DNA from: Hysterangium stoloniferum
Taxonomy: Eukaryota; Basidiomycota; Agaricomycetes; Hysterangiales; Hysterangiaceae
NCBI GenBank assembly: GCA_015178975.1
Contig: WHVD01000002.1
Span: 806,001-870,000, forward strand
Direction: 5' to 3'
DNA: 64,000 bases
Part shown: in pieces, positions 2,933 to 60,900 of the stretch
Layout of the letters: every line of letters starts with the position of its first letter
Numbering within the stretch: position 1 is the first letter of the stretch
Translations under genes and position numbers: made by a program
Notes under the pieces: generated by a model
Told to the model about the DNA's origin: nothing
Databases searched by the model: none
What the model saw: the letters and a program-made list of their open reading frames with translations, nothing else

Positions 2933-4585
2933 CTAGCGGTGTCTTAACCCGCCGTAATAAAAATCATCGGAGTACTTCATTCCCGTCCACATCTCAAACG
3001 ACGGCCTAGTGTCGTTACCTGAATCTCCGCCTCTTCTCTCGACTGTCGTATATCCGCGCATGTTCGGGTCATGAACCCTCCGTATTTCGATAATTTTCCC
3101 CTCCTCATAAAAATCATTCTCATCATCATAGAATTGGACGCTGAGGCCTTCCAAAATGGATAGTATCGTGGTGACCTTTTTGCGTATAATACTAGCGTCG
3201 GGTAACCGGAGTAAATCAGCGAACAAATAAAGGTATCGCAAGTTAGGAAATTTGTATAACTGGCCGAACTAGAACGGAGGGGTTTGTCGGCGGAAACAGA
3301 TGATAGGCTATTACCAACATACGTACAAATTGGTCTACATCATGCCGTTCCCTGCGTATACACGTCAAGTCCAAAACTTGAAGATTCGGCAGCACTCTCA
3401 GTTCCATCAACGATGAATAGCGCTTGATCGAGACTTTCAAGATAACTAATTCAGTCATGTGCGAGAGCAGAGAACAGCGTTTTGAGCCTAGTGTGGTGGT
3501 AAGCTCGAGGTGGCGAAGTTGTTTACCGAAGCCAACAGGCAAAAACTCTATCCCGGTTCCAAACGGCCTTATACTCAGACTTGTCAAGCACGGGAGGCTG
3601 TTTGGATGGAAATTACCCGGTGAAACAAGTGGTCCCTTCAACGAAAGACTCGTTAACTCGTTATGCCTTCTGAAGAAGTTGAACATGATGTCTTGTGATT
3701 CATCGCCAATGATGGATTGTCTAGAAGGCCATGTGCCTACGCCGTGAAGGGTAAGGCGTAAGAGTTCTGGTAAATGGACTTCGCGGAGTGTCGCAGCTAA
3801 ACAGTAAGATATCTCGATACATAAATCTCGTAGTCGTGGAGTGAGACGAAGGATGGTCAGGAGGTTCTCGTCAAAATCTGGGCGCGGCTCCCAGGAGCCG
3901 ACCATAATAGAGAGTTGAGTAAGAAATGAAAGGTGGAAAATCTAATTTCGATGTTATTATTATTCGACATTCCGTGCACAAAAGCCCACCTGAAGCCGTT
4001 CATTGGGTACACCAAAGTCGTGAAAACACATTTCTCGAACATGGCTAGGAACAATTTGCTCCAACGTGTTTGGAAAGCCCAGGGGTGATACAAAATCGCT
4101 TTCCTGCATAACGAATATAGAGAAACAGTGTAGGTTAACCATTGACCTTAGAGCCGCGCGGAAAGTAACTAGACAGGAGGCTCTCTCCTCTTTGCTTAGT
4201 TCCATTACAGAATACGATTGATCATCTCGAAGGTACCTGCGTACTAAACTGTCATGACCCGGTGGGTATACGGAATGTTCCCCTGTAGTTATATCTAGGA
4301 TGTGGACACGGGATGCCAGATCGCGTCTAGAAGCAATGTGTTCCCAAAGGCCAATATCCGAGAGCTTAGCAAAGATGACTCGATACCGGATATGCCACGG
4401 AATTATCAAATCCCTAAAACGTTTTTGAGTCAATGCCAGGTGTAATAAATCCCAGGGATTTTGTATTTCTGATACAATGGCGTCCAAAATCTCTTGTGGT
4501 TGATCACATAGCGAAGTAGTAGCAGTGTGGGAATACCTAAAGAAAAAAGAGGTTAGACACTAATGTACAGGGGCGGAACATACAT
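2933..4585 (-). CDS. F-box protein with LRR-like C-terminal region, paralogue A
   Basis: Predicted exons on the minus strand are 4585-4584 (only AT), 4536-3990, 3887-3327 and 3259-2933, giving 478 residues with no stop. The N-terminus holds an F-box (LCDQPQEILDAIVSEI..WDLLHLALTQKRFRDLI), the motif that binds Skp1 in SCF ubiquitin ligases. The rest has irregular leucine-rich repeats (LPELLRLTL, LPCLTSLSI, LPNLQVLDL), a likely substrate-binding surface. The first intron (GTATGT..CTAAC..TTTAG, 47 bp) splits the start codon. The other introns are about 102 and 67 bp. Relative to copy E it lacks a few codons at the end of exon 2 but stays in frame. F-box identity is clear; the target is unknown and the splicing is predicted. 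Confidence 0.8.
4537..4583 (-). other. 47-bp intron splitting the start codon of F-box A
   Basis: On the minus strand the sequence reads CAT|GTATGT...CTAAC...CTTTAG|GTATTCCC. Removal joins AT to G and makes ATG TAT. The donor, branch site and acceptor are conserved at B, C, D, E and F, while the middle of the intron varies in length (47-76 bp). Confidence 0.65.
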
Positions 4586-7289: not shown

Positions 7290-8961
7290 CTAGCGGTGCC
7301 TTAACCCGCCGTAATAAAAATCATCGGAGTACTTCATTCCCTTCCACATCTCAAACGGCATGCTAGTGCCCTGTCTCTCATTTGTGGTATATCGACACAT
7401 GCTCTGGTCATGAATCCACTGTATTTCGATGGTTTTTGTGTCCTTCCCATCATGAAATTTGACCCTGAGGCCTTTCAAAAGGGTTAGTATCTCAGTAACC
7501 TTTTTGCAGATAATACTAGCATCGGATGAGCTGAATAAATTGTTGTACATAGAGAGATATCGCAGGTTGGGAAATTTGTATAACTGGCTGAGCTAGAACG
7601 CAAGCTTTGTCAAAGGAAACAGATCACAAGTTATTATCAGCATACGTACAAATTGGTCTAAATCATGCCTCTCCTTATATAGGAGGTAACACGTCAAGTC
7701 CAAAACTTGAAGATTCGGCAGCACGCTCAGTTCCATCAACGAGGAATAGCACTTTACCGAGACTTTCAAGATAACTAATTCAGCCATGTGCGAGAGCAGA
7801 GAAAAGCATTTTGCATCTAGTGCTGCGGTAAGCTCGAGGTAGCGAAGTTGTTTACCGAAGCCAACGGGCAAAAGGTCTGATATCCCAGTTTCATACGGCC
7901 ATATATCCAGACTTCTCAAGCCCGGGAGGCTGTTTGTATGGAAAATACCGCGTGCAAGAAGTGGACCCGTCAATGAAAGGCTCATTAACTGGTCATGCCT
8001 TCTGAAAAAGTTGAACATGATGTCTTGTGATTCATCCTCCCTGAGAACCTCATTTCTGCCTTTTACGCTTTGAATGGTAAGGCGTAAGAGTTCTGGAAAA
8101 TGTACATTGCGGAGTGCCGCAAGTAAAGGTTGTGCGTAGGGTATCCCGATATATAAATCACGTAGCCGTGGGGCGAGACAAAGAATGGTCAGGAGGTTCT
8201 GGTCGGCATCTGGGGGCGGCTCCCAGGAGTGAACCGCAATAGAGAGTTGGGTAAGATATGAAAAGTGGAAAATCTAATCGAAATGTTATTATTTTATTAT
8301 TCGACATTCCGTGCACAAAGCCCACCTGGAGCCATTCATTTAAACTATTGGTGGACACATCAAACTCATGAAGACACAGTTCTCGAATATGTCTGGGAAC
8401 TATTTGCTTCAACGTGTTTGCAAAACCCAGTGGTGATACAAAGTCGGTTTTGAAACTCGATGATATAAAGAAACGATGTAGGTTAACCATTAACCGTAGA
8501 GCCGCGCGGAAGGTAGCTAGACACGAGGCCTTCTCCTCTTTGCTTAGTTCCATTGCAGAATATGACTGATCATCTCGAAGGTACCTGCGTACTAAAATCT
8601 GACGTCCCGGCGACTCCATTGAATGTTCTCCTGTGGTTAAATCTAGCATGTGAACACGGGATGCGAGATCCCGTCGAGAAGCGATGTGTTCCCAAAGGCC
8701 CACATCCGAGATCTTAGCAAAGATGACTCGATACCGGATATGCCACGGAATTATCAAATCTCTAAAACGTTTTTGAGTTAATGCCAAGTGCAATAAATTG
8801 CAGGGGGTTTCAATTTCTGATACAATGGCGTCCAAAATCTCTTGTGGTTGAGCACATAGCGTAGCAGCAGCGGTGTGAGAATACCTAAAGAATAGGAAAC
8901 ACGTTAGAAGCTGAATATACAGCCGTGACATATTCTTAATATGCAGCAGTGGAACATACAT
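7290..8961 (-). CDS. F-box protein with LRR-like region, paralogue B
   Basis: Predicted exons are 8961-8960, 8884-8326, 8219-7650 and 7583-7290, giving 474 residues in an open frame. The F-box (LCAQPQEILDAIVSEIETPCNLLHLALTQKRF) is at residues of about 10-50. Leucine-rich segments follow, with a family-specific tail (FEMWKGMKYSDDFYYGGLRHR, minus its first residue in some copies). The introns are 75, 106 and 66 bp, the first splitting the ATG. It is nearly identical to F (51534-53204), including the variable loop before ESQDIMF. Function as an SCF substrate adaptor is inferred from the F-box. Confidence 0.8.
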
Positions 8962-10003: not shown

Positions 10004-11674
10004 CTAGCGGTACTCTAACCCGTAATAAAAATCATCGGAGTACTTTATTCCCGTCCACATCTCAAACGACGTCCTAATGCCCTGTCTCTCACTTGTGGTA
10101 TATCGGTACACGTTCTGGTCATGAATCCACCGTATTTCGATAACCTTTATGCCCGTCCCATGATAAAATCTGACCCTGAGGCATTCCAAAAGGGTTAGTA
10201 TCTTGGTAACCTTTGTGCAAATAATACTAGGATCGGATGAGTCGAATAAATCGTTGTTCACAGAAAGATATCGCAGGTTGGGAAATTTGTATAACTGGCT
10301 GAGCTAGAACGCAAGCGTTTGTCAAAGGAAACGGATCACAAGTTATTACTAAAATACGTACAAATTGGTCTGGACCATGCCCCTTCCTATTTGGGAGGAA
10401 ACACTCCAAGTACAAAGCTTGAAGATTCGGCAGCACTCTCAGTTCCGTCAACGAGGAATAGCACTCTATCGAGACTTTCAAGATAACTAATTCAGTCATA
10501 TGCGAGAGCAGAGAAAAGCATTTTGCGTCTAGTGTGGCGGTAAGCTGGAGCTGGCGAAGTTGTTTAGCGAAGCCAACGGGCAAAAGGTCTGATATCGCTG
10601 CTTGATACGGCCATATATTCAGACTTCTCAAGCTCGGGAGGCAGTTTGTATGGAAAATACCGCGTGCAAGAAGTGGGCCCAGCAATGAAAGGCCTATTAA
10701 TTTGGTATGCCTTCTGCAAAAGTTGAACATGATACTTGGTGAATCATGGCCGCTGAAAACTTCGTTTAGACCTTGTCCGCCGTCAAGGGTAAAGCGTAAG
10801 AGTTCTGGCAAATGTACATTGCGGAGTGTCACAAGCAAAGGTTGTGGGTAGGGTATTTTGATATATAAATCACGTAGTTGTGGTGCGAGACAAAGAATGG
10901 TCAGGAGGTTCTCGTCGGCATCTGGGGGCGACTTCCAGGTGTAGACCGCAATAGAGAGTTGAGTAAGATATGAAAAGTGGAAGATCTAATTGAAATGTTA
11001 TTATTTTATTATTCGACATTCCGTGCACAAAGCCCACCTGGAGCCATTCATTTAGACTATTAGTGGACACATCAAATTCACGAAGACACAGTTCTCGAAG
11101 ATCTCTGGGAACTATTTGCTTCAACGTGTTTGCAAAACCCAGTGGTGATACAAAGTCGGTTTTGAAACCAAACGATATAAAGAAACGATGTAGGTTGACC
11201 ATTAACCTTAGAGCCGTGCGGAAGGTAGCTAGACACGAGGCCTTCTCCTCGTTGCTTAGTTCCATTGCAGAATATGACTGATCATCTCGAAGGTACCTGC
11301 GTACTAAAATCTGACGTCCCGGCGACTCCGTTGAATGTTCCCCTGTGGTTATATCCAGGATGTGAACACGGGATGCGAGATCCCGTCGAGAAGCGATGTG
11401 TTCCCAAAGGCCCACATCCGAGAGCTTAGCAAAGATGACTCGATACCGGATATGCCACGGAATTATCAAATCTCTAAAACGTTTTTGAGTTACTGCCAAG
11501 TGTAATAAATCGCAGGGATTTTCAATTTCTGATACAATGGCGTCCAAAATCTCTTGTGGTTGAGCACATAGCGTAGCGGCAGCGGTGTGAAAATACCTAA
11601 AGAATAGGAAACACGTTAGACGTTGAATATACAGCGGTGACATATTCCTAAATATACAGCAGTGGAACATACAT
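10004..11674 (-). CDS. F-box protein with LRR-like region, paralogue C
   Basis: Predicted exons are 11674-11673, 11596-11038, 10931-10362 and 10294-10004, giving 473 residues without a stop. It has an N-terminal F-box (PQEILDAIVSEIENPCDLL) and irregular leucine-rich repeats (LPSLRSLNI, LRQLQLTATL, LPNLQALYL). Its loop (GGQGLNEVFSGHDSPSIMF) and C-terminus (YYGLEYR) differ from the A/B/E type and match G. The first intron (76 bp) splits the start codon. The neighbour downstream of its promoter is the kinase gene, also on the minus strand, and this pairing is repeated at G and the second kinase copy. Confidence 0.8.
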
Positions 11675-20239: not shown

Positions 20240-21094
20240 ATCATGGGTCCAAAGCCCACGCCTCACAAGCTGATCCCAACAGCCACGCCCTCCACAGGTC
20301 CTTTGTATTGGGCTCCACTCTCTGCTTCCCAAATTCTGGCACAGCAGGAGGAGCAATGTTGACAGTGGGAGGAAGTGGAGGAGAAGGCCAAGGAGGCCGA
20401 GGAAGCATTGGAGTGGGACTATCAGGCAGCACTGACCATGGAGAAAGAAGCCGAGGAGTAGAGGAATAGGGATGAGGAGGGAGCATGGCTTGCCGTGGAA
20501 CAACCCAGGGCAGCTGCTGATGGGGCCGTGGTTGCCACAGGGAAGGTAAGTCCCAACGAGCATCATGATAGACTTAACTGACTTTTGCTTCAGCGCAAGG
20601 CAGCAGAGGTCAAGTTGGAGTCTGAGGGGGAGCCGGAGAGCCCCCAAAATGTAAGTCTCAGGTCCATGGGGTATTCCGGGGACTAACCACATCAACAGAA
20701 AGCAAGGAAAGTGGCTCCAGTCTGTTTGCAGGTGAAAAATGACTTGCCGTGTTCTGGTTGTAATGACTGAAACACTGACTGTCATAGAAAGTCCGGCTGG
20801 GGACCAGGCTGTTGGCAATGTGCACACCTCAAAATGAGGTACTCACTTGTTCATGAGGAGCCCACAGGATCCATGGCATGGGACATGGGCAGTTCAGATG
20901 GGCTGGGGGGCTTGGAGGAGGTTCTGGGATGGATAGCTGTGGGCATAGAGGCCCAGAATGATTTGATTGCAAAGAGCAACTGGGTTCAGGTGGTCATGGC
21001 CAAGAACCTCAAGGAGCTCCACAGGGAGTTTTGGGCTTTCCTGGCAGAGTATGGCAGGTATGTGTACACTGAGCTGCAGATCAGGAGTTCTTAG
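20240..21094 (+). pseudogene. degenerate Gag-like or unknown retroelement ORF
   Basis: In a plus-strand frame from ATG 20243 (MGPKPTPHKLIP) the sequence encodes a Glu/Gln/Ala-rich coiled-coil-like region that stops near 20460. Further open pieces follow, including LEEVLGWIAVGIEAQNDLIA and LKELHREFWAFLAEYG (20834-21094). The composition resembles N-terminal parts of fungal retroelement ORF1 proteins, but no zinc knuckle is seen. The family is uncertain. Confidence 0.35.
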
Positions 21095-21099
21095 GAGCC

Positions 21100-22480
21100 T
21101 GGCGAGGATGAGGCCGGGGTTCCTGAGGAGATAGCACCTCCACAAGAAGCATAAGGAAGTTGGGCAGAAATATAAACTGAAAAGTAATAATAAAGTTTTA
21201 ATAGTTTTTTTTTTGTTTGTGTGTCTGATAAAATGAAACAGGGATTTCCAATTGTCCTGTTGATAGTTGCAATATACACAGAGGTATTGTTCCAATGTCT
21301 GATTGATGCGTTTGGTTTGTCCGTCGCCTTCTGGGTGATGTCTGGACATGAAATGTAACTTCATGTCCAAGGATTTCCCGAGGGATCTAAAGAAGTGAGA
21401 TACGAACTCTGATCCTCGATCAGAAGTTATGTGGGATGGAACTCTGTGCTTGGAAAATACATTGATAATAAAAAGTTCCACTGACTGCATGGACATGATG
21501 GTATCATGCATGGGAATGAATATACCTTGTTTTGAGAATCTGTCAACAATGACTAGAATGGCAGAACAGCCTTCAGAGTCCAGTAGGTGTTCAATGAAAT
21601 ACATAGAGATTGAATACCACAGATGTTCTGGTACTGTATGATGTGTGGCACTGTGATTTAGAGTGTGGACAAGTAATGCAAGATTTACAATAGTGCTTAA
21701 TGAATCCTCGGAGTGTGGGCCAAGTATATTCTCTTCTTATAATTGATAGAGTCTTGTTGAACCTGAAATGTCCTGAGAGTGGATGGTCATATTTGTACTG
21801 GAGAATCCTGAGGCAAAGGCCGTCGGAGTCTGGTACATAGATACAATCGTCAAGTCTAATGAAACCATGCTGATCAAGAGACCACCGGGGTTGACTGGGG
21901 TCCACGGGATTGTCAAAGTGTGCTTTAGTTATCAGGTCTAGCAGAATTGCTGATAGAATATCTTGATGTAACTTTTCAATATCCATAATGATAATTCCAC
22001 AGACAATGGGATGGATGAGGAAAGTTGCACGGACTGATGTGGTAAGTTGCTGATTCGTGAAAATAGGTTTCAAGTTGTGCAGGTTTACCATGGCATAGTT
22101 GTTTCTCCCCTCTTTAGGATAGACATCCCATCATCTAGTTAAAGTGTTGGGTTTGCCACCAAGATGGCCAGGTCAAAAGCAGATAATCATGTTAAAGGCT
22201 GACAGATATTCAGACCAGCGGGCCTGCTGGTGGGTCAAAAGTTTCATAGTAGAAAAGTATTCCAGGTTATTGTGATCTGTTATAACATCAATTGGAATTC
22301 CCAAGCCCTCCAAATAGTGTCGCCACGTTTTGAAAGCTGAAAAATTGCTAGGAGTTCCTTATCATGAATGTCGTAATTGAGCTCTGCTCCGGTGAAAGTC
22401 CGGGACAGAAAAGCCCCAGGGTGGACCTCTCCGTCAGAGTCCTGGATAGACAGACAGAATGGCTCCAAGTGCATATGGTC
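21100..22480 (-). pseudogene. Ty3/gypsy pol fragment: RNase H and integrase
   Basis: In minus-strand order: an RNase H tail ([20 protein letters not shown], 22474-22280); the integrase HHCC zinc domain (H..H..CKSCITC, around 21700); and the integrase core (VIVDRFSKQGIF, TSDRGSEFVS and HPEGDGQTKRINQTLEQYL, 21604-21220). Several frameshifts separate the pieces. The reverse transcriptase and the C-terminus are missing. CpG is depleted. Confidence 0.85.
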
Positions 22481-30363: not shown

Positions 30364-31414
30364 GCATATTTCATTTCATCACATACACCCATTTGTTCTT
30401 AACAGTGGTCCAGCCTTCTGGTAGACTGAAGGCTTATTATCTGCTAGTGATGTGATTTCTTCATTCATAGCTTGCTTCCAAAGGTATGCTTCGGGTCTCT
30501 TCATGGCATAAGTGTAGGTGCTAGGATCTCCAGTTGGTGTAATACTCGCAGCAGCTATGAAGGCTTCTGGGGAATCATCCCAGGCATTGGCAGCCCAGGG
30601 TGTAACCCTTGTTGTATGTGTTCCCGATCAGGGTGTGCATTCATTGGATCATTTCCCCATATGCCCCGGTTCGGTCTGGTGGACCTACGAAGTGGTGGAA
30701 GTGGCTCTTCAGGCAGAGGTGTTGGAGGGGGTGCATTTGAGCCCAGCAATGTAGGTGTATGCACACTTGTATGCGGTGGTATGTGATCTTCATCATCACT
30801 CTCAGGTAATAAGAGGTCAAGTAGTTCAGTGTTGCTGTGTGGGGTCACAGATGATGGTTCGGTTTGGACAGGTTTGATTGTATGAGGGCGAAAAGGGAAG
30901 ATACTTTCTTCAAAGGTAACATCAGTTGAAGCTATGAATCTTCGTGCCATGGGGTTCCATAGTTGATATCCTTTTGTAGTTGGTTCATAGCCTGTGATTA
31001 TAAGTTTTTCTGATGTAGCAGCAAGTTTGGTTCTTGCCATTGTAATGTGCCTATATGCGAGGCAACCAAAGACTCTGAGGTAAGATAGGTCAGGCAGATG
31101 GTTAAAGAGCCGTTTATATGGGGAAATATACTCATTGACTTGTGAGGGTGCACGATTTCTTACATGGGTGGCCATGGATACAGCACCCTCCCAAAAAGTG
31201 TTTGGCAACCCGGTAGATTGTAACATGGCCCGGGCAGCTTCCGCTATTGTCCTATTTGCTCTCTCAGCTACGCCATTTTGCTGTGGTGTGTGGGGTGTGG
31301 TGAGTTCATGTTTTATTCCCTTTTCTTCCAAGAATTTGATGAAGTCTTTTGATAAAAACTCCCCCCCCTCGATCAGAACGTATGGCCCGTATGTCTGTTT
31401 GAGATATGCTTACC
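30364..31414 (-). pseudogene. Ty1/copia pol fragment: integrase C-terminal half and linker
   Basis: On the minus strand: GGEFLSKDFIKFL, the integrase segment TPHTPQQNGVAERANRTIAE with its catalytic Glu, LRVFGCLAYRHI, a Pro/Thr-rich linker, then, after shifts, MKRPEAYLWKQAMNEEI at the entry to the reverse transcriptase. A run of eight G near 31365 breaks the frame. Both ends are truncated, and no LTR of its own was found at the junctions with the Helitron. It replaces the Helitron helicase part after GKLFFL. Confidence 0.85.
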
Positions 31415-36657: not shown

Positions 36658-38316
36658 CTACGATGCGTTGAGCCTTAACCTGCTATGATAAAAATCATCG
36701 GAATAATTCATTCCCGTCCACATCTCAAATGTCGTCCTATTGTTATGAACATGATTTGAGTTTCCGCTCCGCCTTTCGACTGTCGTATATCGGCACATGT
36801 CCCGGGAACGAATCCTCCGTATTTCGATAACTTTTGTGTCACCGAAGTCGTAGTAAAATTCGACCACGAGGCATTCCAAAAGGGGGAGTACCGTGGTGAA
36901 CTTGTCGCGTATCACACTAGCATTGGATAAACTGAATATATTACTGAACACCTTAAGGTATCGCAGATTGGGAAATTTGTATAACTGGTCGACCTAGAAA
37001 GAAAGGGTATGTCATAGGAAACAAATATTTATTTATTACCGCCATACGTACAAATTGGTCTACATCTTCTTCATCTGGGGGCATGGATTTTAACAACTGT
37101 AAGTCCAAAACCTGAAGATTCGGTAGCCTTCTCATTGCCATCAACGGGAACACCCAGTCCATCGAGACATGCAAGATAACTAATTCAGTCATGTGCGAGA
37201 GCGTGGGACCGCACCTTACATCTAGTTTGGTGCTGAAGTGGCGAAGCTTTTCACCGAAACCAACAGGCAAAAAGTCTGATATCTCGACTTCATGATGAAA
37301 TATGCTCAGATTTCTCAAGTCCGGGAAAATGTCTCGACGGAAAACGCCGCGGGGAATATGCAGGTCATACAAAGAAAGACCTATTAGTCGGTTATGCCTT
37401 CTGAAAAAGTTGAACATGATGTCGACTTGTGATTCGTCACCGATGAAACGGTATCGTCCACCGTGAAGGGTAAGGCGCAATAGTTCCGGAAGATGTACAT
37501 CGCGGAGTATCGCAACTAAGCTTTGTGAGCGAGGTATGCGAAGACGGAAATCGCGTAGTTCTGGAAAGTCACGAAGGAGGGGCAGGATATTCTGGTGCCA
37601 ATTTGGTTGTGGGAAGTAGATCGAACAAGAGATTTGAGTGATATGTGAAAATTGGACAATCTAATTCGAATGTTATTATCATTCGACATCAGTGCACAAA
37701 AACCCATCTTGAGCCATTCATATAAACCATCAGTGGACATATCAAATGTATGAAAGCACACTTCTCGAGTATGTCCAAGACGTATTTCCTTTAGCGTGTT
37801 GTCAAAACCCAATGGTAGTACAAAATTGGCACCGTGAGTAAAGGATATAGAGAAACAATGTAGGTTAACCATTAACCTTAGAGCCGCGCGAAAAGTAACT
37901 AGACACGAGGCCTTCTCCTCTTTGCTTAGTTCTATTGCAAAATACGACTGATCATCTCGAAGGTACCTGCGTACTAAACTGTTATGACCCGGTGGGCATC
38001 TTGAATGCTCCCCTGTAGTTATATCTAGGATGTGGACACGGGATGCCAGATCGCGTCTAGAAGCAATGTGTTCCCAAAGGCCAATATCCGAGATCTTAGC
38101 AAAGATGACTCGATACCGGATATGCCACGGAATTATCAAATCCCTAAAACGTTTTTTAGTTAATGCCAGGTGTAATAAATCCCAGGGATTTTTTATTTCT
38201 GATACAATGGCGTCCAAAATCTCTTGTGGTTGATCACATAGCGAAGTAGTAGCAGTGTGGGAATACCTAAAGAAGAAAGAGGTTAGACACTAAATGTACA
38301 GGAGCGGAACATACAT
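36658..38316 (-). pseudogene. F-box/LRR-like paralogue D, probable splice-site loss
   Basis: Expected exons are 38316-38315, 38266 to about 37706, a third to about 37056, and about 36980-36658. F-box and leucine-rich segments are open in each exon (PQEILDAIVSEIKNPWDLL; LPNLQVLDLQLL), and the split ATG is kept. At the end of exon 2 the family donor CAG|GTGGGC reads AAG|ATGGGT, so the GT is lost. The usual acceptor GGGAG before PDFDENLL is also changed. The next GT and the nearest AG do not restore the frame. This is the most divergent copy (tail YHSRLRLNAS). It could still be a gene if different sites are used. Confidence 0.65.
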
Positions 38317-39973: not shown

Positions 39974-41611
39974 CTAGCGGTGTCTTAACCCGCCGTAATA
40001 AAAATCATCGGAGTACTTCATTCCCGTCCACATCTCAAACGACGTCCTAGTGTCGTTATCTGAACCTCCGCCTCTTCTCTCGACTGTCGTATATCCGCGC
40101 ATGTTCTGGTCATGAACCCTCTGTATTTCGATAATTTTCCCCTCCTCATAGTAATCATTCTCATCATCATAAAATTCGACCCTGAGGCCGTCCAAAATGG
40201 ATAGTATCGTGGTGACCTTTTCGCGTATAATACTAGCGTCGGGTAACCGGAGTAAATCAGCGGACAAATAAAGGTATCGCAAGTTAGGAAATTTGTATAA
40301 CTGGCCAAACTAGAACGGAGGGGTTTGTCGGCGGAAACAGATGGTAGGCTATTACCAACATACGTACAAATTGGTCTACATCATGCCGTTCCATGCGTAT
40401 ACACGTCAAGTCCAAAACTTGAAGATTCGGCAGCACTCTCAGTTCCATCAACGATGAATAGCGCTTGATCGTGACTTTCAAGATAGCTAATTCAGTCATG
40501 TGCGAGAGCAGAGAACAGCATTTTGCGTCTAGTGTGGCGGTAAGCTCGAGGTGGCGAAGTTGTTTACCGAAGCCAACAGGCAAAAGGTCTATCCCAGCTC
40601 TATACGGCCTTATACTCAGACTTGTCAAGCACGGGAGGCTGTTTGGATGGAAAATACCCGGTGAAACAAGTGGTCCCTCCAACGAAAGACTCGTTAACTC
40701 GTTATGCCTTCTGAAGAAGTTGAACCAGATGTCTTGTGATTCATCGCCTCCTCCGCCGTAAAGGGTAAGGCGTAAGAGTTCTGGTAAATGGACTTCGCGG
40801 AGTGTCGCAACTAAACAGTAAGGTATACTGATACATAAATCTCGTAGTCGTGGAGTGAGACGAAGGATGGTCAGGAGGTTCTCGTCAAAATCTGGGGGCG
40901 ACTCCCGGGAGTAAACCATAATAGAGAGTTGAGTAAGAAATGAAAGGTGGAAAATCTAATTTGGATGTAATTATTATTCGACATTCCGTGCACAAAAGCC
41001 CACCTGAAACCATTCATTTAAACCATTAGTGGGTACATCAAAGTCGTGAAAACACATTTCTCGAACATGGCTAGGAACAATTTGCTCCAACGTGTTTGGA
41101 AAGCCCAGGGATGATACAAAATCGGTTTCCTGCCTAACGAATATAAAGAAACAGTGTAGGTTGACCATTGACCTTAGAGCCGCGCGGAAAGTAACTAGAC
41201 AGGAGGCTCTCTCCTCTTTGCTTAGTTCCATTACAGAATACGATTGATCATCTCGAAGGTACCTGCGTACTAAACTGTCATGACCCGGTGGGTATACGGA
41301 ATGTTCCCCTGTAGTTATATCTAGGATGTGGACACGGGATGCCAGATCGCGTCTAGAAGCAATGTGTTCCCAAAGGCCAATATCCGAGATCTTAGCAAAG
41401 ATGACTCGATACCGGATATGCCACGGAATTATCAAATCCCTAAAACGTTTTTGAGTCAATGCCAGGTGTAATAAATCCCAGGGATTTTTTATTTCTGATA
41501 CAATGGCGTCCAAAATCTCTTGTGGTTGATCACATAGCGAAGTAGTAGCAGTGTGGGAATACCTAAAGAAGAAAGAGGTTAGACACTAATGTACAGGGGC
41601 GGAACATACAT
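39974..41611 (-). CDS. F-box protein with LRR-like region, paralogue E
   Basis: Predicted exons are 41611-41610, 41562-41004, 40901-40368 and 40300-39974, giving 473 residues in an open frame. It is the closest relative of A, with the same F-box and tail (FYYGGLRHR), but a shorter variable loop (YGGGGDESQDIWF). The first intron (47 bp) splits the ATG. Leucine-rich segments include LPELLRLTLYG, LPCLTSLSIRPY and LPNLQVLDLTC. Its downstream spacer holds the solo LTR 39631-39814. The upstream side holds the foldback element 41803-42351. Predicted role: Skp1-binding adaptor, target unknown. Confidence 0.8.
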
Positions 41612-51533: not shown

Positions 51534-53204
51534 CTAGCGGTGCCTTAACCCGCCGTAATAAAAATCATCGGAGTACTTCATTCCCTTCCACATCTCAAAC
51601 GGCATGCTAGTGCCCTGTCTCTCATTTGTCGTATATCGACACATGCTCTGGTCATGAATCCACTGTATTTCGATGGTTTTTGTGTCCTTCCCATCATGAA
51701 ATTTGACCCTGAGGCCTTCCAAAAGGGTTAGTATCTCAGTAACCTTTTTGCAGATAACACTAGCATCGGATGAGCTGAATAAATTGTTGTACATAGAGAG
51801 ATATCGCAGGTTGGGAAATTTGTATAACTGGCTGAGCTAGAACGCAAGCTTTGTCAAAGGAAACAGATCACAAGTTATTATCAGCATACGTACAAATTGG
51901 TCTAAATCATGCCTCTCCTTATATAGGAGGTAACACGTCAAGTCCAAAACTTGAAGATTCGGCAGCACGCTCAGTTCCATTAACGAGGAATAGCACTTTA
52001 CCGAGACCTTCAAGATAACTAATTCAGCCATGTGCGAGAGCAGAGAAAAGCATTTTGCATCTAGTGCTGCGGTAAGCTCGAGGTGGCGAAGTTGTTTACC
52101 GAAGCCAACGGGCAAGAGGTCTGATATCCCGGCTTCATACGGCCATATATCCAGACTTCTCAAGCCCGGGAGGCTATTTGGATGGAAAATACCGCGTGCA
52201 AGAAGTGGACCCGTCAATGAAAGGCTCATTAACTTGTTATGCCTTCTGAAAAAGTTGAACATGATGTCTTGTGATTCATCCTCCCTGAGAACCTCATTTC
52301 TGCCTTTTACGCTTTGAATGGTAAGGCGTAAGAGTTCTGGAAAATGTACATTGCGGAGTGCCGCAAGTAAAGGTTGTGCGTAGGGTATCCCGATATATAA
52401 ATCACGTAGCCGTGGGGCGAGACAAAGAATGGTCAGAAGGTTCTGGTCGGCATCTGGGGGCGGCTCCCAGGAGTGAACCGCAATAGAGAGTTGAGTAAGA
52501 TATGAAAAGTGGAAGATCTAATCGAAATGTTATTATTTTATTATTCGACATTCCGTGCACAAAGCCCACCTGGAGCCATTCATTTAAACTATTGGTGGAC
52601 ACATCAAACTCATGAAGACACAGTTCTCGAATATGTCTGGGAACTATTTGCTTCAACGTGTTTGCAAAACCCAGTGGTGATACAAAGTCGGTTTTGAAAC
52701 TCGATGATATAAAGTAACGATGTAGGTTAATCATTAACCGTAGAGCCGCGCGGAAGGTAGCTAGACACGAGGCCTTCTCCTCTTTGCTTAGTTCCATTGC
52801 AGAATATGACTGATCATCTCGAAGATACCTGCGTACTAAAATCTGACGTCCCGGCGACTCCATTGAATGTTCTCCTGTGGTTAAATCTAGCATGTGAACA
52901 CGGGATGCGAGATCCCGTCGAGAAGCGATGTGTTCCCAAAGGCCCACATCCGAGATCTTAGCAAAGATGACTCGATACCGGATATGCCACGGAATTATCA
53001 AATCTCTAAAACGTTTTTGAGTTAATGCCAAGTGCAATAAATCGCAGGGGGTTTCAATTTCTGATACAATGGCGTCCAAAATCTCTTGTGGTTGAGCACA
53101 TAGCGTAGCAGCAGCCATGTGAAAATACCTAAATAATAGGAAACGTTAGACGCTGAATATACAGCGGTGACATATTCTTAAATATGCAGCAGTGGAACAT
53201 ACAT
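51534..53204 (-). CDS. F-box protein with LRR-like region, paralogue F
   Basis: Predicted exons are 53204-53203, 53128-52570, 52463-51894 and 51827-51534, giving 474 residues in an open frame. It is nearly identical to B, with few substitutions (for example HNKL for HDQL, MINLHRYF for MVNLHRFF). The split ATG and intron 1 (74 bp) are conserved. An internal ATG stands at codon 5 of exon 2. Members of the block keep order and strand: F then G then the kinase copy, as B, C and the kinase. Confidence 0.8.
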
Positions 53205-54249: not shown

Positions 54250-55774
54250 CTAGCGGTACTCTAACCCGTAATAAAAATCATCGGAGTACTTTATTCCCGT
54301 CCACATCTCAAACGACGTCCTAATGCCCTGTCTCTCACTTGTGGTATATCGGTACATGTTCTGGTCATGAATCCACCGTATTTCGATAACCTTTATGCCC
54401 GTCCCATGATAAAATCTGACTGAGGCATTCCAAAAGGGTTAGTATTTTGGTAACTTTTGTGCAAATAATACTAGGATCGGGTGAGTCGAATAAATCGTTG
54501 TTCACAGAAAGATATCGCAGGTTGGGAAATTTGTATAACTGGCTGAGCTAGAACGCAAGCGTTTGTCAAAGGAAACGGATCACAAGTTATTACTAAAATA
54601 CGTACAAATTGGTCTGGACCATGCCCCTTCCTATTTGGGAGGAAACACTCCAAGTACAAAGCTTGAAGATTCGGCAGCACTCTCAGTTCCGTCAACGAGG
54701 AATAGCACTCTATCGAGACTTTCAAGATAACTAATTCAGTCATATGCGAGAGCAGAGAAAAGCATTTTGCGTCTAGTGTGGCGGTAAGCTGGAGCTGGCG
54801 AAGTTGTTTAGCGAAGCCAACGGGCAAAAGGTCTGATATCGCTGCTTGATACGGCCATATATTCAGACTTCTCAAGCTCGGGAGGCAGTTTGTATGGAAA
54901 ATACCGCGTGCAAGAAGTGGACCCAGCAATGAAAGGCCTATTAATTTGGTATGCCTTCTGCAAAAGTTGAATATGATATTTTGGGATTCATGGCCGCTGA
55001 AAACTTCGTTTAGACCTTGTCCGCCGTCAAGGGTAAAGCGTAAGAGTTCTGGCAAATGTACATTGCGGAGTGTCACAAGCAAAGGTTGTGGGTAGGGTAT
55101 TTTGATATATAAATCACGTAGTTGTGGTGCGAGACAAAGAATGGTCAGGAGGTTCTGGTCGGCATCTGGGGGCGACTTCCAGGAGTAGACCATAATAGAG
55201 AGTTGAGTAAGATATCAAAAGTGGAAGATCTAATTGAAATGTTATTATTTTATTATTCAACATTCCGTGCACAAAACCCACCTGGAGCCATTCATTTAAA
55301 CTATTAGTGGACACATCAAATTCACGAAGACACAGTTCTCGAATATGTCTGGGAACTATTTGCTTCAACGTGTTTGCAAAACCCAATGGTGATACAAAGT
55401 CAGTTTTGAAACCAAACGATATAAAGAAACGATGTAGGTTGACCATTAACCTTAGAGCTGTGCGGAAGGTAGCTAGACACGAGGCCTTCTCCTCGTTGCT
55501 TAGTTCCATTGCAGAATATGACTGATCATCTCGAAGGTACCTGCGTACCAAAATCTGACGTCCCGGCGACTCCATTGAATGTTCCCCTGTGGTTATATCC
55601 AGGATGTGAACACGGGATGCCAGATCCCGTCGAGAAGCGATGTGTTCCCAAAGGCCCACATCCGAGAGCTTAGCAAAGATGACTCGATACCGGATATGCC
55701 ACGGAATTATCAAATCTCTAAAACGTTTTTGAGTTACTGCCAAGTGTAATAAATCGCAGGGATTTTCAATTTCT
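54250..55774 (-). pseudogene. F-box/LRR-like paralogue G, 5'-truncated and frameshifted
   Basis: Nearly identical to C from the middle of the F-box (IENPCDLLHLAVTQKRF) to the stop. Two lesions are visible. The sequence leaves homology at 55774/55775, where retroelement DNA begins, so the first codons, the start intron and the promoter are gone. In the last exon two bases are missing near 54420 (CTGAC|TGAGG against CTGACCCTGAGG in C), which shifts the frame. Exon 3 remains fully open. Confidence 0.85.
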
Positions 55775-56631
55775 CTGCAACCTTCGACATCTTTTGAAGT
55801 ACGGATATTTCGGTATCTGAGTCTTCCGGGGTAGTGATGAACAACGGCCGACGAATCGACATACAAGTTGTGGTTAAAGAAACAAAAACCTTAATTCGAA
55901 TATTTGGAGGTTTTTATACTCAGAATAACAGCCGAAACTCTCACCTCCATATTTGCGTAAATTTCACGACACATAACAATCAGCCGTCGCTTCAAACACT
56001 TGGTACCTAATCGCCTCTATGGGATTTCGGCCTAACAGGGGGGTACTGTTACGACCCGTTCCCGGATGTTTCAATATCCGACTTCCGGTCTCCCACTCCC
56101 GACTTCCGATCCCCGACTTCCGACTTTGACCTCCGACTACGGAACATCATAGTTACCGTATCATCCGCATTCTTCCCTTGTTCCGCATTTGGTAATTTGT
56201 CCGTTGACAAGTATTCACTCGTTTGTTTGTTATATTCCTGTTACGGAATATTGCCTTCCTAATATGTCTTATTGTATTTCCATTTTAAGAACACTTCCGT
56301 TTCCATCTTATTATGGTCTTAGTTTGTAGTACAATAACGAGCAGACTTATATTAGTTTCCGCGAATTTGTACTTTACCTTAGATCTGATATCGACTTAGT
56401 TTCTTATTCCTTCTCCCGTCTTTCTGTACGCTCGATATTCGGAACTCTTCAGAACTCTGAATATCCGTAACTCCCATCACAAGTCTCACCTCCGAAATTA
56501 AGGACATTGAGCGTTTGCGTAGAGGCGCAGCACATAAGCTGAAGCCGACGTCCTGACCCTATCTAGTTGTTCCCGACTTTCCGGTGACTTCCCAATAGTT
56601 CCGGAATAAGTTCCCGACACGGCACTTAACA
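55775..56631 (+). mobile_element. 3' end of a gypsy-type element: tail, purine tract and LTR
   Basis: 55775-56034 is noncoding or degenerate internal DNA. 56035-56046 is a purine tract (ACAGGGGGGTAC), directly followed by an LTR from 56047 (TGTTACGACCC) to 56631 (CACTTAACA). The LTR core motif CAGCACATAAGCTGAAGCC reads on the plus strand. Most of this LTR differs from 58792-59517, so it is a separate subfamily. Its 5' part is missing. Its right end joins the gypsy protease region without an intervening flank. Confidence 0.7.
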
Positions 56632-57600
56632 AAACTGGGCCTAGGGGCAGATGTGAACCATCTTCAATATCAATTTTCAAATCGTAAGGCCTGTGAGGGG
56701 CGAGTCGATCTGCTTTTTGTTTACTGAAGACATCTGCAAATTCATGGTATTTTTTGGGAACACCTTCCAAATCTGTGATTGGTTCGGCCACCGGGGATGC
56801 AAAGCGACCGGTGACTTTGTCAACTTTAAGATTGACTGTAAATGCTCGGGAGCCGTCCAACTTGATGGCTCTCATAAAAGCTGCGGCATTTATTAGAGAG
56901 ATGGGCGGCGGAGAGCTCGGATTTGCCACGGGGGCCGGAGGTGCTGTAGAGGCCATATTTGCTGAAACAGGTGGAAACGGACCAGTCGTATCAGGTGCCG
57001 ACGGGGTTCGGAAATGGATACTGCCCAATACCCAATCAATCAACGGATTGTAGCGGGTGAGCCAGTTATGTCCTAGAACCACAGAGCAACTCGGGTCCAA
57101 CTGTGTTACAAAAAATGTAACTGTCTGAAAGGTTCCACATGAGAACTGAAGTTGGAGTTTGCAGGCTTGTGAGATTATGGAGTTTGAGGTACCATCAAAG
57201 AGTCGGAGCTGAATCGGATCTATTGCATAGGTTTTTAACTGATTTTTTCGGGAAAAACTTGTATCTATAAAACAATGGGTTGAACCTGAATCTATGAGAG
57301 CTCGAAAAGTGAGATTCCCGAGAGGTTCCGAAGTAAGATTTATGAACAAAGAATTAGGATCATACAAGGCAGATGTGTTAAGGTGACAATTTTCCAGTGT
57401 GCGAGGAGATTCAACGCAACTCTCCAATCGCACGGAATCCAGAGAGTCGCTTAATCTTTTTTCAACTCGGCAGCTGGCTTGGCCGGTTGCGAGGTCGTGG
57501 CCGTATTGGCCGATCAGGCTTTTGTGGCTTTTGGGCATGCAGCAACTCGGTGTCCGGGATCTGCACACAACAAACAAAGGTTGTTGTCCATTTGGCATTG
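56632..57600 (-). pseudogene. Ty3/gypsy protease region, truncated
   Basis: On the minus strand an aspartic protease with the active-site block ALIDSGSTHCFID is followed by VVLGHNWLTRYNPLIDW and the approach to the reverse transcriptase (YHEFADVFSKQKADRLAPHR, DLKIDIEDGSHLPLGP). The reading is cut exactly there at 56632 by the LTR of the plus-strand element. The reverse transcriptase, RNase H and integrase are absent. Confidence 0.85.
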
Positions 57601-58753
57601 CTTTTCCTGTGGTAGGAGCTTGCCATCGGAGCCGAGTTTGCCAGTTAAGTTGGGTTTGTCTTTGTCTTGAGACTTACATATTTGACTGTTTTCCCTTGCC
57701 TTTTTTGTCGTTAGACCCTTTGTTTTCAGGCTTCTTATCGGAGGTCGAGTTGCCACTGTTGTTGGTGTTTTGATTACCAGACTTGTTGGCATTCTTATTG
57801 TCTGACGATTTCTTGTCCGAGGGGTTTTCACGACTAATTTCCGAATGTTGTTCCCAGTATCGGGCATCTGCGTTTTGGGCTTTCAGATGCATGAGAGGGA
57901 GGGTCTTCAGCTTGCCAGTCTCTCCTTTGGAAACTTCATCTTTGAGGCAAGACGGAAGGCCGGAGTAAAACTGGTAACAGAGGGCCGAATCGCCCCAGTC
58001 GCAACGCACGGTGAGGTTGTTGAACTGGACGATGTAATCGGTGATGCGCTGGGTGTCTTTCATTTTGAGCTTAGAAAGCATGGTTTTGGCATCGCCGGTT
58101 TGGTCATAGGGACCGAAGTTGGTTTCTAGTTCCTCAACAAAGGCATCCCAATCGTGAAGCCAATCAGGGTCTTCGGAGGTGAGGCCAGAGAATGCAGGTT
58201 CAAACCAGGCTGCTGCAGAGTCCTTCAGGTATGAGAGTGCAAGGTTTACCTTTCGGTCATCCTTTGCGAATGCAGCCGGGTGGTCCCAAAAGTTGAATCG
58301 ACATTGCATAAGAAATCTCGGCAATTTCTTTGGGTTTGAGCGAGTGAATGGCTCGGGTTTGTTGACTCGGGTTTGCCCAGGTTCCTTTTCCTTGATATTG
58401 CTTTCAAGGAATTCGTTAAGGGATCCTAGTGTACCTGAGAACAATTCCCATGTCTCTTCAGGGTTGAGAGCCGGTTTCTTTTTTGTGGACTTCTTGGAAC
58501 CGCTAGCCTGAGGTTGGTCGCCATCCTCGGGTTCATGTTCCGGAGCTGATTGGTTGTTAATCTCTTCAGTTGCTTCGGGTTTGGTTGCTTCAGTTACTTC
58601 TTCAGCATCGCCGGTAATCTCCACAAAGCGAGGTTCTTTGGAGGTTTCTGGTAGCGGGGTTCTCTGAGTAGCTCGGGCTGTATACAGGAAAGGAGCCTTG
58701 AGAGTGGAAGATTCTGCTTCGCCGCTAGGCTTGGCATTTTTTCTCGGAGGCAT
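57514..58753 (-). pseudogene. Ty3/gypsy Gag with zinc knuckle
   Basis: ATG at 58753 starts a 359-codon frame (MPPRKNAKPSGEAES..). It contains the capsid motif WLHDWDAFVEELETNFGPYD and the matrix-like QFYSGLPSCLKDEV. A second frame overlapping its end supplies the knuckle CLLCADPGHRVAACPK (about 57570-57520). A further shift leads into the protease. Gag-Pol shifts can be natural, but two changes suggest decay. The capsid motif is of the type common in Agaricomycete gypsy elements. CpG is retained, so the element is young compared with the 18-36 kb relics. Confidence 0.85.
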
Positions 58754-58791
58754 GATTGAACGGAAAATGCGAGTGTGAAATCAGAATATAC

Positions 58792-59517
58792 TGTTAAGAA
58801 CTGAAAACTGACTAATGTCGGTGGCCGATGGGGACCGATCGGAAGGACTTGGCTTCAGCTTATGTGCTGCGCCCTCGCAAATATCCGTATGGTGTCCTTA
58901 GATTTCAGACGGGTGAAGACTAAATCCTAAGAAGTACCTTTCGGCGAGATACCGATTGGAACTGAAGGACAAGTCGAGTGTCTGGCCAAGGGGTTGGGCC
59001 CGAGAGTGGGCGAGCGCATGTGAAGACGGATAGGGGAATTCTTAGTATGAGACTGTTGCAGACATATGAGGGTATTCTGAGTCGATATTCTGATTGCCTA
59101 GTAACTACAACTACAGCGGGTTCATATACAAGTAACAGGCGTCTAGAAAATACTAATGGGGAGAAAGGTGGAAAGCGGCATTAACAATAAGCTTGACTAG
59201 GAACGGGAAGTTTATGATTAGTTCGGAGGCCGATGATAACCGAGAGCAAAATTACAATAAAAGGAAATAGTTCGAGGACTACAAATATAGATAGACATAT
59301 GTGAAACATAGAGTGAGACGGATCAACATAATGAAAGGGACGTATCAAAGCATAACCAGATAGAAAGGCGTAGTTCGGGTTTGATTGACCGGAAGGCATA
59401 TGTCAGCGTCGGGGGACCGACGGCCTCCGAGATATCGTCTTGATTGAAAAAGGATAACTACGACGATATACCATCGGTTACTGTCGGCGTGCGAAGGGTT
59501 GCGACACAGTCGTAACA
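58792..59517 (-). mobile_element. 5' LTR of the gypsy element (family alpha)
   Basis: 726 bp with TGTTAAGAACTG at the left and GTCGTAACA at the right on the plus strand. It is oriented with the Gag, which starts 39 bp downstream. It is homologous to the CpG-poor LTRs 18717-19405 and 29243-29917. The right flank CTGGA is inside the Ngaro-like reverse transcriptase frame. The matching left flank is lost. Confidence 0.85.
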
Positions 59518-60900
59518 CTGGAGCGGATTATTGGACTGTTCCAAACGTCGCCCTTGGGGCTAATACCAAAACCAAATTCAAGTACTTACCGCTTAATACA
59601 AGACCTATCCTTTTCCCAGGGGGACCCATCCCATTCTTCCATAAACAGCCACATAAACCCCAGCGACTTCCCAACAGAATGGGGCACCTTCACAGATGCT
59701 GCGGCATTGATTCTCTCACTCCCAAAAGGTTCTGTAGCAGCCACATTTGACATCTCGGCAGCATACAGAATGACGCCAGTAAAGCTGGGCCAGCAGAATG
59801 CCTGTTGCATCTGCTGGGATGGCCTGGTGTACGTCGACCATGCAGTGGCATTTGGTCTGGCTTCGAGCGTTGGGGTGTTTGGCAGCAGAGCCGACATGCT
59901 GATAGCTCTATATCGGAAGGCTGGCTTTGGACGCCTACTCAAATGGGTAGACGATTTCCTGGCCGTGCGCCTCCCAGGTCAGAAATGGACCGAAGATGAG
60001 TTCATTGCCCTGACAGCACAATTCGGTGTGCCATGGAGCCAGAGCAAGACGAGACCATTTTCGTCGATCCAGAAGTACATAGGTTTTTTGTGGAACCTGG
60101 ATACCAAGATGGTTTCAGTACCAAAGGAGAAGCTAGATGCAACGCTGAACTTGATCAAGGGCTGGGCAGTGGAAGATGCACGTTTCTCAGGGAAGGAAGC
60201 AGACAGACTGCATGGGAAACTAGTGCACATCTCATCCATTTTTCCGTGGATAAGACCTTTCTTACGTTCCATCGCCTCATTCGCAAACAGCTTCAATCCG
60301 AGGAGAGCATCATTATCCCCAGGTGCAGCAGTCCAGGCAGATATATCATGGATCCAGTATATACTTCTCCACCTACCAAATGAGTTACCAATCGCATCAC
60401 CAGAGGTAGTGGACATGGGATGGTGGGGCGACACCAGCACATCCTTCGGGTTGGGTGTCGTAGTAGACAACCAATGGGCAGCATGGAGGTGGGAACCCAG
60501 CTTCAAAGTGGGTCCACATTGCCAGTGCAACATTGGCTGGGCCGAAGCTGTCGCAGTCGAGATGGGCCTACGGGTGGCATTACAGCAGGATTGGATGTGA
60601 CAGCGGAGCCCGGAACAGTCGACATTTTTGGTGCAGTCGGACAACTGTGGCGTGGTAGCTGTTTTAAACAAAGGCCGATCACGCAGCAAGGAGACAAACA
60701 ATATTCTAAAAGAGATTTACAAACTGTTAGTATCAAACCGTATACAGCTGAAGGCAATATACGTACCATCAAGGGACAATGTTTCAGATGCCCTATCACG
60801 AGGGCATATTGGCGAATTCCTCAGAGGTTTTCCAAAAGCTGAAACACAAGCCAGAGTCGATATTCCTGGGCACCTGGTGCATCAGATCCAATTATTGTAG
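59518..60900 (+). pseudogene. reverse transcriptase and RNase H of the Ngaro-like element
   Basis: The frame is open from the LTR boundary (RIIGLFQTSPLGLIPKPN). It includes the catalytic aspartate in TFDISAAYRMTPV (about 59750) and the VDD box in WVDDFLAVR (about 59950). The RNase H acidic residues follow in GDTSTSFG, WAEAVAVEMGL, QSDNCGVVAVLNKGRSR and NVSDALSRG. A single in-frame TGA (60598-60600) interrupts RNase H. The frame then stays open to TAG at 60898-60900. The N-terminus is missing. Confidence 0.85.

Follow-up and report, generated by a model that had tools for sequence, protein, structure and literature searches.

Start codons that are interrupted by an intron are known from fungi and also occur in animals and plants. 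For Yarrowia lipolytica, the sections of the published survey considered here list 561 introns in the 5'UTR, 42 in the start codon, 1700 in the ORF, and 118 in the 3'UTR, with splicing efficiency being highest for introns near the start codon (PMC13309789). These 42 introns include cases with the donor after the G, and the number of introns truly splitting the ATG is not given in these sections (PMC13309789). The genes described in this study resemble them as nuclear genes of a fungus in which the donor directly follows one of the start-codon letters (PMC13309789), but they differ in forming a single tandem gene clade with sisters in the other state, which makes the origin of the split start traceable. 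According to the same excerpt, 5'UTR introns containing an upstream ATG and a stop are thought to be repressive if they are retained (PMC13309789). Likewise, retention of the first intron in the genes A, C, D, E, and F described below would give a reading of 8-10 codons from the same ATG; in contrast to these 5'UTR introns, however, this ATG doubles as the start codon of the spliced message rather than being a separate upstream one. An engineered split start is used in the plant system RETS, in which it is rejoined by trans-splicing ribozyme halves (PMC12363958). As far as the excerpted account of RETS goes, a reporter cut at the U of the AUG was expressed after splicing, indicating that a split AUG can gate translation (PMC12363958). 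RETS is artificial, ribozyme-based, and acts in trans, whereas the intron of the genes considered here is natural, lies in cis, and has ordinary splice signals. No closer natural case was found in the open-licence PMC literature, a limit by which this result is no evidence of novelty. The gene structure is of a known kind, here with a within-genome series. In the family of Hysterangium stoloniferum described here, it is likely that the split AT|G is the normal translation start of an F-box-like domain (the box) in one clade, that this state is derived, that the old ATG has been lost, and that the intron is probably removed constitutively.

The window, i.e. the whole stretch of 64 kb that was analysed, contains seven family matches when the N-terminal 175 residues of gene A are used as the query, all of them on the minus strand. 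Six of these genes, A to F, have the arrangement AT|GTATGT...CTAAC...TTTAG|G in common, and removal of their first intron (47-76 nt) results in an ATG in frame with the F-box-like exon. The frames and coordinates thereby bear out the split-start architecture that had been proposed for these six genes in an earlier, sequence-only reading. The features of the seven copies are as follows.

4584 to 4585, minus strand: gene A, end of exon 1, AT, which supplies the opening two letters of the start codon
4537 to 4583, minus strand: gene A, intron 1, 47 nt, GTATGT..CTAAC..TTTAG
3990 to 4536, minus strand: gene A, exon 2, F-box-like part; its first base (4536) is the G of the start codon
3942 to 3989, minus strand: gene A, predicted intron 2, 48 nt, GTGGGC..TTAG
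3243 to 3941, minus strand: gene A, exon 3, C-terminal part through the stop; full model 415 aa
8960 to 8961, minus strand: gene B, AT of the split start
8885 to 8959, minus strand: gene B, intron 1, 75 nt, a multiple of 3 and open, so that the retained form is in frame
7593 to 8884, minus strand: gene B, exon 2 (8884-8326), predicted intron 2 (8325-8274), and exon 3 (8273-7593); 413 aa
11673 to 11674, minus strand: gene C, AT of the split start
11597 to 11672, minus strand: gene C, intron 1, 76 nt, with two ATGs in the frame of exon 2
10227 to 11596, minus strand: gene C, exon 2 (11596-11038), predicted intron 2 (11037-10986), and exon 3 (10985-10227); 439 aa
38315 to 38316, minus strand: gene D, AT of the split start
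38267 to 38314, minus strand: gene D, intron 1, 48 nt
36953 to 38266, minus strand: gene D, frames of exon 2 and exon 3; downstream model doubtful
41610 to 41611, minus strand: gene E, AT of the split start
41563 to 41609, minus strand: gene E, intron 1, 47 nt
40284 to 41562, minus strand: gene E, exon 2 (41562-41004), predicted intron 2 (41003-40956), and exon 3 (40955-40284); 410 aa
53203 to 53204, minus strand: gene F, AT of the split start
53129 to 53202, minus strand: gene F, intron 1, 74 nt
51837 to 53128, minus strand: gene F, exon 2 (53128-52570, codon 5 being an in-frame ATG), predicted intron 2 (52569-52518), and exon 3 (52517-51837); 413 aa
55114 to 55890, minus strand: G, family member without the split start and without the first part of the box

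In all six genes, the donor is GTATGT, the acceptor is TTTAG, and a branch-like CTAAC has its first base 20-23 nt from the 3' end of the intron. No in-frame ATG that is open into exon 2 was found within 200 nt upstream of the junction in A to F; in E, two in-frame ATGs are located upstream of the junction, each closed by a stop. The assertion that the split ATG is the only in-frame initiator thus agrees with the upstream regions of all six genes, but not with F and its ATG at codon 5 of the spliced frame. The early stop behind the unspliced ATG, which had also been pointed out, is found in five of the six genes. The long intron type (74-76 nt; 8885-8959, 11597-11672, 53129-53202, and others) appears by eye to be a partial tandem duplication with a second AATATG. 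It also carries a weak second donor, AT|GTCACC, which would likewise yield AT|G if it were used.

Once intron 1 and the predicted intron 2 (48 or 52 nt) are removed, open frames of 410-439 aa follow the split start in five of the six copies, namely A, B, C, E, and F. An alternative in-phase donor of intron 2, GTGCAC, is present in B, C, and F (416, 442, and 416 aa, respectively) and was set aside for the shared GTGGGC. In D (37661-37735), AT is found where the GT donor of intron 2 is expected, which makes the downstream model doubtful, although the frames of exon 2 and exon 3 are still open; this copy may be a recent pseudogene or may be spliced otherwise. In G, a close relative of C (98/85), non-aligning sequence takes the place of the 5' end together with the beginning of the box (55114-55960). 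Between and beside the copies, retrotransposon-like open frames resembling pieces of integrase, gag, and reverse transcriptase were noticed by eye at 20894-22130, 30555-31409, 56498-58780, and 59458-60600.

The F-box-like label for this family rests on kinship and is reasonable but weakly supported. The N-terminal part of A matches the F-box-like family PF12937 weakly, with 18.2 bits compared to a cut-off of 24.3; a further copy, L023, is also below this cut-off with 18.8 bits, and no match to PF12937 was found in L032 and L033, in which respect these proteins differ from members of PF12937. The distant paralogue L060 (C220:12825-13055), 38 % identical to A with E 6.7e-8, is over the cut-off with 29.5 bits and may tie the family to PF12937, as far as the deep branches of the tree allow. 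A whole-genome search for the F-box family PF00646 yielded 13 matches, none of which is on C112, the contig of the window. For exon 3, a sub-threshold match to LRR_4 was the only result with Pfam. A PDB sequence search led to a single match (E 0.22) to a SusD homologue, which looks unrelated and was rejected.

The genome that was searched comprises 111 Mb in 554 contigs and contains 99 matches to the first 175 residues of A. It also has 18 hydrophobin matches, as would suit a mushroom-type basidiomycete. From these, 90 loci were fetched (L009-L098), and the 5' end could be placed in 85 of them, L037, L090, L091, L092, and L096 having no usable 5' end. For counting the junction, 38 close family loci were compared. 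AT|GTATGTT with the acceptor AG|G is present in 24 of these (L009-L028, L030, L031, L039, and L040, with L016, L021, and L018 being B, C, and F, respectively), it has decayed to AT|GTGTGT in L044, and it is absent from 13 (L029, which is G, and L032-L036, L038, L041-L043, L045, L047, and L055). Accordingly, the split start does not extend to the whole family, contrary to the earlier claim. With the 5' regions of C and A as queries, the same split-start loci were recovered, and the 24 copies are a lower bound, with one further 5'-region match at C112:884262-884383. Every one of the 24 copies has a GTATGT donor, CTAAC or CTAAT 20-24 nt from the intron end, and an AG acceptor. Two groups of copies, L024, L025, and L026 (contigs C336, C460, and C237) as well as L023, L027, and L028 (C528), are near-identical and represent either very recent duplicates or uncollapsed haplotypes.

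Evidence for the position of the start comes from the distribution of indels. They were counted in 49 pairwise comparisons within three subgroups, which cover 18 of the 24 copies with a split start. Indels not divisible by 3 amount to 87 for the final 60 nt of exon 1, 23 for the intron, and 0 for both the exon-2 start segment and the next 450 nt, and those divisible by 3 amount to 22, 0, 5, and 0 in the same four segments. As many of the copies arose by recent duplication, the counts are non-independent, and the exon-2 start segment is short and represented by few events, its five in-frame counts being one deletion in L010 seen in five pairs. In these comparisons, frame-breaking indels are thus confined to the region before the junction and to the intron. 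Together with the loss of the ordinary ATG in 23 of the 24 copies, this comparison makes the assembly of the start codon by splicing, as originally suggested, a well-supported interpretation, and we infer that the intron is spliced and the resulting ATG used. At position -3 relative to the spliced ATG, 23 copies have A and one has G.

The conservation of the splice sites was assessed by a Fitch count in 19 of the 24 copies, leaving out L024 and L025, which are located at contig ends with little upstream DNA, and the truncated L031, L039, and L040. No changes were counted in the six sites of the donor GTATGT and the two sites of the acceptor AG, compared to 23 changes in 35 sites of the intron interior; in 65 codons of the box, there are 25, 6, and 30 changes at codon positions 1, 2, and 3, respectively. 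This conservation of the splice sites supports a working intron. The AT before the donor is also without changes, but it comprises just two sites, for which about 1.3 changes would be expected at the interior rate of 0.66 per site; by a hand estimate, its invariance would arise by chance in about 1 in 4 cases at this rate, and it was dismissed as proof of function. Hence, the contrast between conserved boundaries and a variable interior that the sequence-only reading had described applies to the splice sites (0/8 vs 23/35) but cannot be extended to the AT. The rate of change in exon 1 (81 changes in 44 sites) was left unused, as the alignment is poor there.

A different location of the true start is unlikely. 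In this case, translation would begin in an upstream exon, at a transcript start inside exon 2, at Met5 of F, or at a near-cognate codon such as the ACG found in place of the ordinary ATG in the C type, and AT|G would be a fortuitous upstream ATG next to an intron of the 5'UTR. Such starts are available in some copies, since an upstream ATG in exon 1 is open into the spliced frame in three of the 24 (L015, L019, and L022) and F has Met5. However, in-frame upstream ATGs are not common to close copies, and frame-breaking indels are frequent in the last 60 nt of exon 1, on which grounds a conserved upstream coding exon was rejected. Of the 24 split-start copies, 11 have ACG as the fourth codon before Gln-Pro of the box, the site of the old start, and ACG can act as a start in fungi. 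At this site, however, six copies have TCG and another six have TCC, neither of which is known as a near-cognate start. The remaining copy, L040, has ATG. This truncated and broken copy (C112:895900-898500) has a stop directly after the spliced ATG, and the ATG at its old start position resembles a one-base reversion from ACG.

It is quite improbable that regulated intron retention silences the family at the level of translation under some conditions and that the split start has been kept for this purpose. This possibility is related to the proposals that translation is strictly dependent on splicing and that retention is an off switch. If the intron is kept, there is no in-frame start before the box in 13 of the 24 copies (L009-L014, L023-L028, and L030), which then have a short or out-of-frame reading. 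Strict dependence therefore holds in these 13 copies, and among the genes of the window it holds in A, D, and E but fails in B, C, and F. After retention, nine copies still possess an in-frame ATG, within or at the intron, that reads into exon 2 (L015, B, L017, L019, L020, C, L022, L031, and L039), and F has an extra one in exon 2, so that an off switch common to the family would leak. The unspliced ATG of B opens a frame of 267 aa that runs across the intron and into the box, and the two intron ATGs of C are found at +4 and +31, both of them in the exon-2 frame. For eight of the nine copies, the first ATG gives an 8-codon reading, and use of the later ATG would thus need leaky scanning, which B does not need. 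The splice sites are unchanged in the 19 copies tested, as would be compatible with regulated retention, but this is the expectation for any intron, and no sign of regulated retention was found in the sequence comparison of the 24 split-start copies. The off-switch reading is therefore unsupported and partly contradicted.

The retained form of nine of the 11 long-intron copies (74-76 nt; including B and C, and with two of the nine being truncated) would have an extra N-terminal part of about 16-26 residues, which is partly hydrophobic. The open retained intron of this type was rejected as evidence for coding, as a run of 25 codons would stay open by chance with a probability of about 0.3 (61/64 to the power 25, estimated by hand) and indels of 1 and 2 nt set B and F apart from their relatives there.

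It is less probable still that the junction is a mere passenger of recent tandem duplication in a decaying cluster and has no present function. Several copies are indeed broken (L031, L039, L040, G, and probably D), and the copies on contigs C336, C460, and C237 are near-identical, but 21 of the 24 split-start copies have an exon-2 frame that stays open over 190 aa or more after splicing, and the eight split-start pairs with a dS of at least 0.298 have dN/dS values of 0.35-0.45. Across all split-start pairs that were computed, selected from a set of 12 loci and including deep pairs with a dS of 0.3-0.47, the point values of dN/dS over 150 codons are 0.35-0.64, and judged from these values exon 2 is under moderate purifying selection. 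The least probable of all readings, with hardly any credence, is that splicing of intron 1 serves as a control point throughout the family and has diverged from one subfamily to another, silencing some paralogues and re-addressing others; if this were true, the A-type copies and the copies on C528 would lose the box protein upon retention, whereas the nine long-intron copies would make a protein with the extra N-terminal part.

The likely function of the split AT|G as the normal start of the box leads to the question of its origin, for which the loci without the junction are informative. An ordinary ATG four codons before Gln-Pro of the box (Leu-Pro in L055) is present in 10 of 12 such loci, with G and L044 left aside. 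In the other two, an ATG is found at the aligned place by eye (L047) or has been lost by deletion (L036). In L038, L043, and L045, this ATG is out of frame of the protein match, and these loci are probably frameshifted copies. DNA that aligns with the intron but has no GTATGT donor is present in L033, L035, L038, and L043, with TTACGTATT at the acceptor position compared to TTTAGGT in the split copies. The decayed or partial copies L042, L047, and L055 have a GTATGT-type donor, a CAG|GTA acceptor, and a downstream ATG, and there is no split ATG at that donor; L047 would obtain AT|G by use of a GTGTAT donor located two bases upstream. The ATG at the place of the junction may be older than its split use, because L032, L034, L036, and L041 carry ATATG without a GT donor at the aligned place.

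In a rooted protein tree of 30 hand-chosen loci, L033, the sole representative of its contig C518, is placed outside, followed by L032, L034, and L036 (contig C508; 94/93) and then by the split clade (100/99). The split start, itself well supported, is confined to one clade. As the rooted tree nests the split clade within copies with an ordinary ATG, we infer that the split start was probably derived once, inside these copies. In a DNA tree of the 38 loci, the split state requires one change without G and two changes with G, and the old-ATG state requires two changes, which is due to L040 (G and L036 left out). Among the outgroups, L074 has an ATG at -4 (MLTNQP) and L060 at -3 (MLQQP); in the others, the nearest in-frame ATG is at -3 (L048 and L052) or at -6 to -47, and two have none. 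As the ATG of the outgroups is thus mostly located elsewhere, an ancestral start at -4 is not borne out beyond this subfamily.

Read most simply, these data would mean that the start codon moved once, from within exon 2 to the splice junction upstream. Most likely, the ancestor would have carried an intron in its 5'UTR and started translation at an ordinary ATG a few codons into exon 2. With AT immediately preceding the GT donor and an in-frame G opening exon 2, splicing would then have provided an upstream ATG. Subsequently, the old ATG would have decayed to ACG, TCG, or TCC, by which the dependence on the intron would have become fixed. Removal of intron 1 is probably constitutive, and copies unable to splice it would lose the box protein in about half of the cases.

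For gene annotation, this structure implies that predictors seeking an intact ATG may place the start of these genes wrongly or miss the genes. The genome of H. stoloniferum contains apparent stages of the birth of a split start, namely a 5'UTR intron with an ordinary ATG, followed by a split ATG with the ordinary one lost. The family would thus provide a concrete case of a neutral UTR intron turning indispensable for translation.
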